From positions 1 to 64,000 of the forward strand of contig JANXSZ010000035.1 of assembly GCA_025356445.1 (NCBI GenBank): a DNA stretch of 64,000 bases. Reading direction: 5' to 3'. Position numbers and translations under genes: made by a program. The notes below the pieces were generated by a model, which worked only from the letters and a program-made list of their open reading frames with translations, did not search any database and was not told the origin of the DNA. Below, piece by piece: positions 50,389 through 55,344 of the stretch. Source of the stretch: Betaproteobacteria bacterium (GTDB taxonomy: Bacteria; Pseudomonadota; Gammaproteobacteria; Burkholderiales; Burkholderiaceae_C). The stretch's first letter is position 1, and each line of letters begins with the position of its first letter.

Positions 50389-51282
50389 TTAATGGGTGAG
50401 ACGCGCTAATGCATCACGGTACTTTTGCGCAGTATGTTCAATTACTTTTTGAGGCAGGCGTGGCGCAGGCGGGGTTTTGTCCCATGATGTTTGCGTTTCC
50501 AGCCAGTCGCGCAAAAACTGTTTGTCGTAGCTGGGAGGGTTGCTGCCCTCAGCCAAGCTTTGTTCGTAAGATTCTTCAGGCCAGAACCGGGACGAATCGG
50601 GTGTCAATACCTCGTCCATCAGCACCATATTGCCGGCATCGTCCAGGCCAAATTCAAACTTGGTATCGGCAATGATGATGCCCTTGGCCGCTGCGATTTT
50701 GCTGGCGGCCACATAAAGCTGAATGCTGATGTCCCGCATTTGGCGTGCCAAATCGGCACCAATGGTCTGCTCAACTTGTGCGTAGCTGATGTTCTCGTCA
50801 TGCTCGCCTACAGCGGCTTTGGCTGCGGGGGTGAAGATGGGTTCAGGCAGTCGACTGGCATTTTTCAAGCCAGGGGGCAGGGGGACGCCGCAAACGGTTT
50901 GGGATTCTTGGTATTCCTTCCAGCCACTGCCGGCCAAGTAACCGCGCACCACCGCCTCGACGGGCAGTGGCTTCAAGCGCTTGACGAGCATCGAGCGGCC
51001 TGTGACTTGCGCCACTTCATCGGCCCGCACTGCGCTTTCAGGCGCATCGCCCGTCAGGTGGTTAGGGCAAATGTCACCCAGCTTGTCGAACCAAAACAAC
51101 GCCATTTGCGTCAGCAGCGTACCTTTGCCGGGAATGGGTTCACCCATGATGACATCGAAGGCGCTGATACGGTCGCTGGCAACCATGAGGATGCGGTCAT
51201 CGCCCACGGCGTAGTTGTCCCGTACTTTGCCACGGGCGAGCAAGGGAAGAGAGGCGAGGGAAGAGGTGTGGAGAGCGTTCAT
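50389..51282 (-). CDS. purC: Phosphoribosylaminoimidazole-succinocarboxamide synthase
   Basis: 297 residues from the ATG at 51282, matching the long PurC form of proteobacteria. [33 protein letters not shown] (start range), [26 protein letters not shown] and [16 protein letters not shown]-like [18 protein letters not shown] are all present. It condenses CAIR with aspartate using ATP. It is on the same strand as fba, 122 bp downstream of the fba stop; a hairpin lies between. Confidence 0.93.
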
Positions 51283-51404: not shown

Positions 51405-52469
51405 TCAGTTCACCATCTGCGCCAGCTGCCCTAGCGCGTATTTGCCAGCCACTACTTGCAGGCTATCACCCTTGATTTTGCTGCCCTGGCCTTCGCAGCC
51501 GAACTGCAAATAGCGCTGCTTGCAAATCATCTTCGCCGCTTCGCGGGCAGGCTTGAGGTAATCGCGGGGGTCGAATTTGTCGGGGTTCTGGGTCAGGTAA
51601 AGGCGAATCGCTGCTGTCATGGCCAAGCGCACATCGGTGTCGATATTGATCTTGCGCACGCCAAATTTGATGGCTTCCTGGATTTCTTCGACGGGTACGC
51701 CGTAGGTTTCCTTCATGGCTCCACCGTTTTGGCGGATGATTTCCAGCAGGTCTTGCGGTACGCTGCTTGATCCGTGCATCACCAAATGGGTGTTGGGGAT
51801 GCGGCGGTGGATTTCCTTGATGCGGCTGATGGCCAGATTGTCACCGGTGGGCTAGCGGGTGAACTTGTATGCGCCGTGGCTGGTGCCAATGGCGATAGCC
51901 AGGGCGTCGAGCTGGGTGCGTTTCACGAAATCGGCGGCTTGTTCGGGGTCGGTCAGCAGCTGTTCCATGGTCATGGTGGAATCGGTGCCATGGCCGTCTT
52001 CCTTGTCGCCCTTCATGGTTTCCAGGGAACCCAGGCAGCCCAGCTCGCCTTCTACCGTCACGCCTTGGGCATGCGCCATGGCGACGACTTTTTTGGTAAC
52101 TTCGATGTTGTATTCGTAGCTGGCAATGGTTTTGCCATCGGCTTCCAGGCTGCCGTCCATCATCACCGAGCTGAAGCCCAGTTTCATCGCGCCTTGGCAG
52201 ACTTCGGGGTTCTGGCCGTGGTCTTGGTGCATCACCAGGGGGATATGCGGATATGCTTCAATAGCGGCCTGAATCAGGTGTTTGATGAACGCTTCGCCCG
52301 CGTACTTGCGCGCACCAGCGCTGGCCTGCAAGATGACGGGAGCCCCGACTTCGTCTGCCGCAGCCATCACCGCCTGGACTTGTTCCAGGTTGTTCACATT
52401 GAAAGCCGGAATGCCGTAGCCGTTGACGGCAGCGTGGTCCAGCAGTTCGCGCATTGAGACGAGAGCCAT
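51405..52469 (-). pseudogene. fba: Class II fructose-1,6-bisphosphate aldolase, interrupted by an in-frame amber codon
   Basis: The full frame is 354 codons plus stop, exactly the length of the proteobacterial enzyme. Codon 206 is TAG (51852-51854) where relatives have Lys (FTR-K-PTGD); AAG to TAG is one base change. Reading continues in the same frame with [32 protein letters not shown]. Residues before the stop include MHQDHGQN and GTSHGAYKF; the last zinc-ligand His (VMHGSS) and the substrate-binding [10 protein letters not shown] lie after it. A 205-residue product would be inactive. The gene is central to glycolysis and gluconeogenesis and the rest is perfectly conserved, so a base error or very recent mutation is likely. 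Confidence 0.85.
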
Positions 52470-52586: not shown

Positions 52587-54035
52587 TTATCCCACGCGGC
52601 AAATTTTCAGCATGTTGGTGCCGCCCGGTGCACCCATGGGTTCGCCGCAGGTGATAGCGTACACATCGCCAGTTTTTACAATGCCGCGTTTCTTCAAATA
52701 CTTCTCGGCTTGTGTCAGCGCTGAGTCGCGGTCGGTGATGGTGGCCACCAGCAGCGGGCGCACGTTGCGGTAAATCGCCATTTTGCGCTGCGTGGCAATG
52801 CGGGGGGTTAAAGCGTAGATGGGCACGTCGATGCGGTGGCGGCTCATCCACAAAGGCGTGCTGCCGCTGTCAGTCAGTGCCACGATGGCCTTAGCACCCA
52901 GATGGTGGGCTGTGAACAAGGCGCCCATCGCGATGGTTTGGTCGATGCGGGTCGTGCTTTTGGTGGTGAACCCACCGTCCAGCTCCACATGCTCGGCTTT
53001 TTCAGCGGCTTCGCAGATGCGGCTCATCTCTTGCACCGTTTCCAGCGGGTACTTGCCTGACGCGGTTTCTGCGCTCAGCATCACGGCGTCGGTGCCGTCC
53101 AGCACGGCGTTGGCCACGTCACTCACTTCGGCGCGGGTGGGCATGGGCGCAGAAATCATGCTTTCCATCATCTGGGTCGCGGTGATGGCAAATTTGTCCA
53201 TGGCTCGGGCCATTTTGATCATGCGCTTTTGCAAGGCGGGCACGGCAGCGTTGCCTACCTCCACCGCCAAATCACCACGGGCTACCATGATGCCGTCGCT
53301 GGCCTTGAGGATGCTTTCCAGGTGTGGAATCGCCTCAGCACGCTCGATTTTGGCGATCATGCCGGGCTTGTGCTTGAATTCAGCAGCCGCCACGTTGCAG
53401 AGTTGGCGCGCCATTTCCATGTCGGTGGCGTTTTGCGGGAAGCTCACCGCCACGTAATCGGCCTGGAAGCTCATCGCTGTTTTGATGTCTTCCATGTCCT
53501 TTGCTGTCAGCGCCGGGGCGGTCAGGCCGCCGCCCTTTTTGTTGATGCCTTTGTTGTTGGACAACTCGCCGCCCAGGTTGACCGTGGTGTGTACCGCCTC
53601 GCCCACCACCTTGTCTACCGTCAGCATGATGAGGCCGTCGTTCAGCAGCAGCACATCACCCGCCTTGACATCCTGAGGCAGCTCTTTGTAATCGAGGCCC
53701 ACCGCGCTCACGTCACCCAGCTCTGTGCGCTCGCCGTCCAGCACAAACTTGGCACCGGGTTCCAAAAAGACTTTGCCTTCTGCGAACTTGCCCACGCGGA
53801 TTTTCGGGCCTTGCAGATCGGCCATGATGGCGACTTCGCGCCCTGCGCGGCGGGCTGCCTCGCGCACCATCATGGCCCGGTCGATGTGGTCTTGCGCCGT
53901 GCCGTGGCTGAAGTTCAGCCGTACCACGCTGACTTTGGCGCGGATCATCTTTTCGATCAGCTCCACCGTGTTGGACGCAGGTCCAAGGGTAGCCACAATT
54001 TTGGTGGCATGGCGGGGGATGTTTGTCTCCATCAT
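52587..54035 (-). CDS. pyk: Pyruvate kinase
   Basis: 482 residues from the ATG at 54035 (54032 is a second ATG); the long upstream extension has no family similarity. KIVATLGPASNT, VVRLNFSHGTAQDH, MADLQGPKIRVGKF, the active-site lysine block MIAKIERAEAI, DGIMVARGDLAVE and ATQMMESMI are complete. The C-terminal allosteric domain follows from about 350. It makes ATP and pyruvate from phosphoenolpyruvate. It is flanked by fba and pgk, the usual glycolytic cluster of Burkholderiales. Confidence 0.94.
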   Translation of the reverse strand: MMETNIPRHATKIVATLGPASNTVELIEKMIRAKVSVVRLNFSHGTAQDHIDRAMMVREAARRAGREVAIMADLQGPKIRVGKFAEGKVFLEPGAKFVLDGERTELGDVSAVGLDYKELPQDVKAGDVLLLNDGLIMLTVDKVVGEAVHTTVNLGGELSNNKGINKKGGGLTAPALTAKDMEDIKTAMSFQADYVAVSFPQNATDMEMARQLCNVAAAEFKHKPGMIAKIERAEAIPHLESILKASDGIMVARGDLAVEVGNAAVPALQKRMIKMARAMDKFAITATQMMESMISAPMPTRAEVSDVANAVLDGTDAVMLSAETASGKYPLETVQEMSRICEAAEKAEHVELDGGFTTKSTTRIDQTIAMGALFTAHHLGAKAIVALTDSGSTPLWMSRHRIDVPIYALTPRIATQRKMAIYRNVRPLLVATITDRDSALTQAEKYLKKRGIVKTGDVYAITCGEPMGAPGGTNMLKICRVG

Positions 54036-54150: not shown

Positions 54151-55344
54151 TTATCCGTTCGCCCGCTTTTGCAAAATCTCAAACGCCGGCAGCGTTTTTC
54201 CTTCCAGCACTTCCAGGAAAGCCCCGCCGCCAGTGGAGATGTAACCCACCTGTTTTTCAATGCCGTATTTGGCAATAGCGGCCAGCGTGTCGCCTCCACC
54301 TGCTATCGAAAATGCAGCGCTGTCGGCGATGGCTCGGGCAATGGTTTGTGTGCCGTGGGCAAAGGCGTCGAACTCGAACACGCCGACGGGGCCGTTCCAG
54401 ACGATGGTGCCAGCGGCTTTGAGTTGGGCGGCTAAGCGGGCAGCGGTCTCTGGGCCAATGTCCAGTATCAAATCATCGTCAGCCACATCGGTGGCGGCTT
54501 TGACGGTGGCCACGGCATCGGCGCTGAAGCTTTTGGCGCACACTACGTCGGTGGGGATGGGCACATCCGCGCCACGGGCCTTCATGTCGGCGATCACCGT
54601 GCGGGCTTTGTCCACCAAATCAGGCTCAGCCAGGCTTTTGCCGATTTTCAAGCCAGCGGCCAGCATGAAGGTGTTGGCGATGCCGCCGCCCACGATCAAC
54701 CCGTCCACTTTGGAAGACAGCGCTTCCAAAATTGTCAATTTGGTGCTGACTTTGCTGCCCGCCACGATGGCGACGAGGGGGCGCTTGGGAGCCGCCAGCG
54801 CTTTGCTGATGGCGTCCATCTCGGCCGCGAGCAGGGGGCCAGCGCTGGCGATGGGTGCGAACTGGGCGATACCGTAGGTGGTGGCTTCAGCGCGGTGGGC
54901 GGTGCCGAAGGCGTCGTGGACGAAGATGTCGCACAGGGTGGCGAGCTTCTTGGCGAGGTCTTCACTGTTCTTTTTCTCGCCCTTGTTGACGCGGCAGTTT
55001 TCCAGCAGCACGACCTGGCCGGGAGCCACGGTAACGCCATCCACCCAGTTGCTCACCAGGGGTACGTCACGGCCCAAAAGTTCACCGAGGCGTTTGGCGA
55101 CGGGGGCCAAAGAGTCGGCAGGTTTGAACGCGCCTTCTGTGGGGCGACCCAGGTGCGACGTGACCATCACTGTGGCACCGGCATCCAGTGCCATCTGGAT
55201 GCAGGGCACGGAGGCGCGGATGCGTGTGTCTTCGGTGATCTGGCCGGCGTCGTCTTGCGGCACGTTCAGGTCTGCACGGATGAAGACGCGTTGGTTCTTG
55301 GCGCGGCCTTGGGCGCAGAGGTCAGAAAAGCGGATGAAGTTCAT
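54151..55344 (-). CDS. pgk: Phosphoglycerate kinase
   Basis: 397 residues, full length. [62 protein letters not shown] (range), [40 protein letters not shown] and [12 protein letters not shown] are all present. It interconverts 1,3-bisphosphoglycerate and 3-phosphoglycerate. It is upstream of pyk on the same strand, 115 bp apart, with nothing else in the gap. Confidence 0.95.

Follow-up and report, generated by a model that had tools for sequence, protein, structure and literature searches.

Has a betaproteobacterium lost its fructose-bisphosphate aldolase (FBA), or does an amber codon in the assembled gene conceal an enzyme that the living cell still makes? The question is raised by the fba locus in a 64,000-nucleotide stretch of contig JANXSZ010000035.1 (assembly GCA_025356445.1), hereafter the window. 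We followed the amber codon through the gene itself, its relatives, the rest of the genome and the enzymes that flank the aldolase in metabolism.

An amber codon in an otherwise complete aldolase frame

By its sequence, the minus-strand frame at 51405-52469 of the window is a class II (type B) FBA gene of 354 codons, running from an ATG at 52469 to a terminal TGA at 51405-51407. Codon 206 is TAG, and it is the sole internal stop. The fba frame is identical and open on either side of it (Table 1), and rereading the same frame reproduced the earlier note's description of an amber codon across which the frame does not change. When X was placed at codon 206, the translated frame scored 575.2 bits against TIGR01521 (cut-off, 496.35) and covered model positions 1-347 of 347, whereas residues 1-205, as terminated, scored 347.2 bits, under the cut-off. 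Thus the frame read with X is a member of the family and the terminated product is not accepted as one. In length, too, the frame is like the type B enzymes. All four motifs sought were kept in the frame: MHQDHG at 80, GTSHGAYKF at 195, MHGSSS at 231 and NIDTD at 275, the last two being C-terminal of the stop codon. We take these motifs to hold the metal-ligand His residues and NIDTD to be the substrate-binding block; on that assumption the truncated product would lack a zinc-ligand His and the substrate block, as had been predicted from the first reading.

Table 1. Features of the fba region, in window coordinates
Feature	Position	Strand	Basis
In-frame amber codon TAG, fba codon 206	51852..51854	-	frame reading
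fba codons 1-205, class IIB FBA N-terminal part with MHQDHG and GTSHGAYKF	51855..52469	-	profile and motifs
fba codons 207-354 and terminal TGA, with MHGSSS and NIDTD, no further stop	51405..51851	-	profile and motifs
pyk (pyruvate kinase), upstream neighbour, open frame	52587..54032	-	
pgk (phosphoglycerate kinase), open frame	54151..55344	-	
purC (SAICAR synthase), downstream neighbour, open frame	50389..51282	-	

The gene order in the window is pgk-pyk-fba-purC. Antisense to fba, a 227-codon open frame (51774-52457, plus strand) covers the TAG site and is most likely a shadow of codon usage. It is worth noting that the amber codon creates a CTAG, a tetranucleotide that is scarce in the sampled stretches of this genome (668 seen versus 1623 expected under a second-order model).

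Codon 206 and the aldolase gene in relatives

Among 79 relatives from named genomes (80 loci minus L032, which is cut before the gene start), the residue at codon 206 was Lys in 62, Pro in 6, Gln in 5, Glu in 4, and Arg and Met in 1 each. At the codon level, 100 relatives had AAG (75), AAA (8), CAG (5), CCG (4), GAG (3), and CGG, GAA, CCA, CCC and ATG once each; 83 of them therefore encode Lys and the others Gln, Pro, Glu, Arg or Met. In these alignments, Lys at 206 is favoured and not required. The proposal of an AAG-to-TAG change at a conserved Lys is thus borne out as to the commonest codon, but the residue is not invariant.

A homologue search of 100 genomes (own included) found the gene in 90, and a family-wide search found it in 375 of 399 family genomes, again with the own genome included; no congener was among the genomes searched. 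None of the 79 fba genes of relatives had an internal stop. In the 100-genome search, rows of nine relatives reported one; on rereading, five had no stop within the aligned part, and in the other four it was the terminal stop, at query position 345-346. Among the matches listed from the 399 family genomes (about 150), a stop occurred in the window's fba only. Read across these sequences, an internal stop is not a habit of fba; the frame is disrupted in the window and the gene is intact in relatives, as in a nonsense pseudogene.

Sequence divergence on the two sides of the stop

Decay past the stop was examined against 100 relatives. The window's fba has six residues found in none of them after the stop and 0 before it (one-sided p 0.018), whereas such private residues number 71 before and 74 after in the 100 relatives pooled, and 2 of these relatives equal the window's count beyond the stop. 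Similarly, the conservation-weighted after/before ratio of fba ranked second of 101, 1 of the 100 relatives being higher, and the same ratio was ordinary for the neighbours (24 of 63 relatives higher for pyk and 22 of 71 for purC). Before the stop, conservation is no lower than usual, 70 of the 100 relatives scoring as more divergent. After the stop, 0 changes fell at positions at least 95% conserved and three at positions at least 90% conserved, a number equalled or exceeded in 25 of the 100 relatives. Against 13 near relatives, pairwise dN/dS was about 0.05-0.14 for the part before the stop and about 0.09-0.23 for the part behind it, and in this set of 14 the after/before dN ratio of fba came fifth. 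Terminal-branch ratios placed the window's fba 17th of 101 by protein, 25th by codon positions 1 and 2 and 15th by position 3, which means that synonymous sites are raised too. A first decay test, which took in 59 of 109 loci, had given p 0.105.

Judged from these comparisons, the signs of decay after the stop are mixed. The earlier note had seen no sign of other decay; the conserved positions, pairwise dN and branch ratios do not support decay, and the six private residues and the weighted ratio do. A gene that had been useless for long should decay in both parts, and neither part does. The stop, if real, is young.

Search for a second aldolase

The genome of the window (G000) comprises 3,953,405 bases in 84 contigs, with a completeness of 99.77%. 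PF01116 had a single match in it, which is the TAG-bearing gene itself, and PF01791, PF00274 and PF01950 had no match; no class I or archaeal-type FBA was found. The PF00274 profile at first matched none of 14 control genomes, and on a rerun it matched 7 of 11 genomes, G000 included, the other 10 having been picked for having no homologue of the window's fba. A second aldolase is therefore rejected as far as these four families tell, and the suggestion that a fresh mutation is rescued by a second fba or a class I aldolase found no support from the profiles.

The seven matching genomes (G015, G021, G065, G068, G069, G071 and G095) are Burkholderiales without a homologue of the window's fba, and their PF00274 class I aldolase matches were four strong and three weak. 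G082, G089 and G098 had neither a PF00274 match nor a homologue of the window's fba, the latter as judged by homologue search.

Decoding of TAG in the genome

The tRNA search of the genome yielded 36 matches, of which ARAGORN typed 35. None of the typed tRNAs, a set found to be incomplete, has the anticodon CUA; Asp, Asn, Ile-GAT and Ala-TGC are missing from it despite the 99.77% completeness, probably because these genes fall in assembly gaps at repeats. Since obligatory tRNAs are absent from those found, a suppressor could likewise sit in an assembly gap. One tRNA-Leu whose anticodon is written 'tag' was set aside, as it reads Leu codons and is not a suppressor. The untyped and weakest match (L147:988-1041, contig C73) resembles the 3' portion of a tRNA-Lys, CCA end included, of the kind that insertion of an element at a tRNA gene may leave behind.

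RF1 is present and has no stop inside (TIGR00019, 473.1 bits). Codon usage predicts 680 genes in 954,976 bases of the genome, and 78 of these end in TAG. TAG is an ordinary terminator here. The idea that TAG has become a sense codon throughout the genome, for which nothing speaks beyond the single fba codon, is rejected because RF1 is intact, TAG ends 78 of 680 genes and no CUA tRNA was found; we regard its probability as negligible.

Error load of the assembly

We scanned 1,681,943 bases of the genome (42.5%, window included, with about 5.5 kb counted twice in overlapping short tRNA stretches) for in-frame stops with coding signal on both sides, about 30 codons each side, a design blind to stops that lie close to the ends of genes or in atypical ones. 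There were 8 candidates in 360,503 bases and 38 in 954,976 bases, fba being among both; extension to 1,681,943 bases listed 35 rows, 3 of which were window rows already in the 38-candidate list. Inspected by eye, the candidates other than fba were judged to be ordinary gene ends or spurious stretches, according to where the next start codon lay or the coding stretch ended, and more context was inspected for 8 and then 10 of them. No second comparable in-frame stop was seen in the 1,681,943 bases.

Within the sampled 42%, there is thus no sign that the genome is riddled with base errors. A base-error rate up to about 1e-5 is still compatible with the scan by our estimate. Near that rate, one or two error-made stops would be expected per genome, so a clean sample leaves room for an error in fba. 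Accordingly, the base error proposed in the earlier note survives as an explanation of this codon, and the roughly 42% of the genome that was sampled showed no pattern of random base errors such as might have accompanied it.

Enzymes of the fructose-1,6-bisphosphate node

No match to FBPase class I (PF00316) was found in the genome, although controls including E. coli matched, and none to phosphofructokinase (PFK; PF00365). Across 80 genomes, own included, PF00316 matched 64, 63 of them over the cut-off, and PF00365 matched 51, 50 of them over the cut-off. Among the 72 of these 80 with completeness of at least 90% and contamination of at most 5% (own included), 71 have FBPase and/or PFK, and the window's genome alone has neither. 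Eleven other good-quality genomes without FBPase all have PFK (G030, G067, G069, G070, G073, G074, G077, G080, G081, G082 and G085). G008, G009 and G039 also have neither enzyme, as expected from missing sequence since they are less complete. Absence of PFK alone is common in the family. A genome that is 99.77% complete thus lacks detectable FBPase I and PFK together.

E. coli GlpX and Fbp had no match in the sampled 42% or so of the genome, which says little on the remainder. In relatives, fbp is adjoined by a gene of about 900 codons in 9 of 10 cases and, beyond it, by a shorter conserved gene in 8; we take the former to be pepN and the latter to be prmB/prmC-like. This neighbourhood did not occur in the sampled part (about 42%) of the window's genome. 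Furthermore, zwf and pgi are present in the genome and stop-free over the matched stretch. Together, the profile results suggest that the whole fructose-1,6-bisphosphate node may be gone, a reading beyond the options that the earlier note had listed.

Putative genes for sugar acids and polyols were seen at five loci (L203:9474-15750, L186:2589-4049, L231:9021-10239, L188:10180-11445 and L192:1419-2951). By appearance, they comprise IlvD/Edd-like dehydratases, a KDPGal-type aldolase, a gluconolactonase-like protein, a xylulokinase-like frame and a glycerol kinase; beyond appearance, there were sequence matches to E. coli glpK, edd and eda. They fit a sugar-using life-style.

Weighing the explanations

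The reading that we put first, at about even chances of being right, is that a genuine, recent nonsense mutation would have inactivated the sole aldolase of a lineage seemingly without a fructose-1,6-bisphosphate node. In this Comamonadaceae-like bacterium, translation of the only FBA gene would stop after 205 residues. A product ending there would miss the third metal-ligand His and the NIDTD block, in the roles that we assume for them, and could therefore not be an aldolase. The loss would be tolerated because FBPase I and phosphofructokinase are undetectable too, which would leave fructose-1,6-bisphosphate a dead end. Hexose phosphates would then be obtained from imported sugars by way of glucose-6-phosphate isomerase and the pentose-phosphate and Entner-Doudoroff routes. 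We infer here that living cells carry the stop, that GlpX and all other FBPase types are missing, and that the life-style depends on sugars; without the absence of GlpX the reading would not hold. Against it stand, besides the constraint still kept after the stop, two further points. One base separates TAG from the AAG of most relatives, and a base error would look identical; and it would be unusual for a free-living relative of Rhodoferax with 4 Mb of DNA to do without upper gluconeogenesis. The broader proposition, that the entire node has been dismantled in a betaproteobacterium whose genome is not reduced (no phosphofructokinase, no FBPase, an aldolase just inactivated), and that the organism can make no hexose phosphate from C3 compounds and depends on sugars taken through the pentose-phosphate and Entner-Doudoroff routes, is one that we advance tentatively, as somewhat doubtful.

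The main rival is that the draft consensus is wrong at this one base, or took it from a minority or a mixture of strains, in which case the living cells would have a sense codon and a working aldolase; this is a real possibility, if short of even chances. TAG is one substitution away from the AAG, CAG or GAG of 83 of the 100 relatives (75, 5 and 3), the rest of the frame is open with its four motifs kept, constraint past the stop is largely preserved, and no second aldolase turned up that could make good a loss. The nearest named relatives, moreover, are mostly MAGs, and the genome itself is an 84-contig draft. Against an error stand the 1,681,943 sampled bases with no second such stop and the absence of FBPase I and PFK from the same genome, which it leaves unexplained: a real loss explains the fba stop, the missing FBPase and the missing PFK, but a base error explains the codon only. 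Readthrough of a real TAG, by an amber-suppressor tRNA or near-cognate decoding, might also yield enough full-length aldolase. Most insertions at 206 would work, the position tolerating many residues (relatives have K, Q, P, E, R or M), the frame beyond the stop is still constrained, and the incomplete tRNA set leaves room for a suppressor in a gap. Yet none of the 35 typed tRNAs is CUA, RF1 is intact, TAG ends 78 of the 680 sampled genes and no other sampled gene was seen to need readthrough. We consider it improbable, and the earlier note's appeal to readthrough or a suppressor gained no positive support. Finally, fba might now be split in two: one fragment would have 205 residues, and a restart of translation at the TTG/GTG/ATG codons 229-231 would give a C-terminal one. 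The two would form a split TIM-barrel aldolase, or the N-terminal fragment would keep another job. The succession of possible starts at codons 229-231 and the N-terminal part, from which 70 of the 100 relatives are more divergent, fit this idea; but a restart would lose 23-25 residue positions of the fold, no split was seen in the relatives' genes read, and there is no stop-start overlap or short spacing as in translational coupling. It is very improbable.

Should the codon prove real, a central-carbon enzyme would have been caught in the first step of being lost, with the flanking enzymes of its substrate undetectable too, and free-living existence without upper gluconeogenesis could be put to the test in this organism. 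Should it be a base error, a pseudogene annotation would be wrong for this gene, and the absence of FBPase and PFK would still be noteworthy. A literature search found nothing on such a case, by which we do not claim that none is in print.

Comparison with known systems

Compared with amber suppression and readthrough systems, the window's fba is alike in having an in-frame TAG at a residue-tolerant position and unlike in that no suppressor tRNA was found and no second needy gene was present in the sample. Compared with class II FBA of type B (TIGR01521/PF01116), the gene is alike in length, frame, motifs and full HMM coverage with X, and differs by the TAG at 206 and by a terminated product under the family cut-off. 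The solved chains 5u4n and 5u7s of this type align to the window frame without gaps and have Pro, not TAG, at 206. The likeness to young bacterial pseudogenes with a single nonsense codon lies in the one stop, the otherwise open frame and the weak, mixed relaxation after it; the gene is unlike them in that it would encode a central enzyme of which a 3.95 Mb genome has no further copy, which we hold to be unusual.
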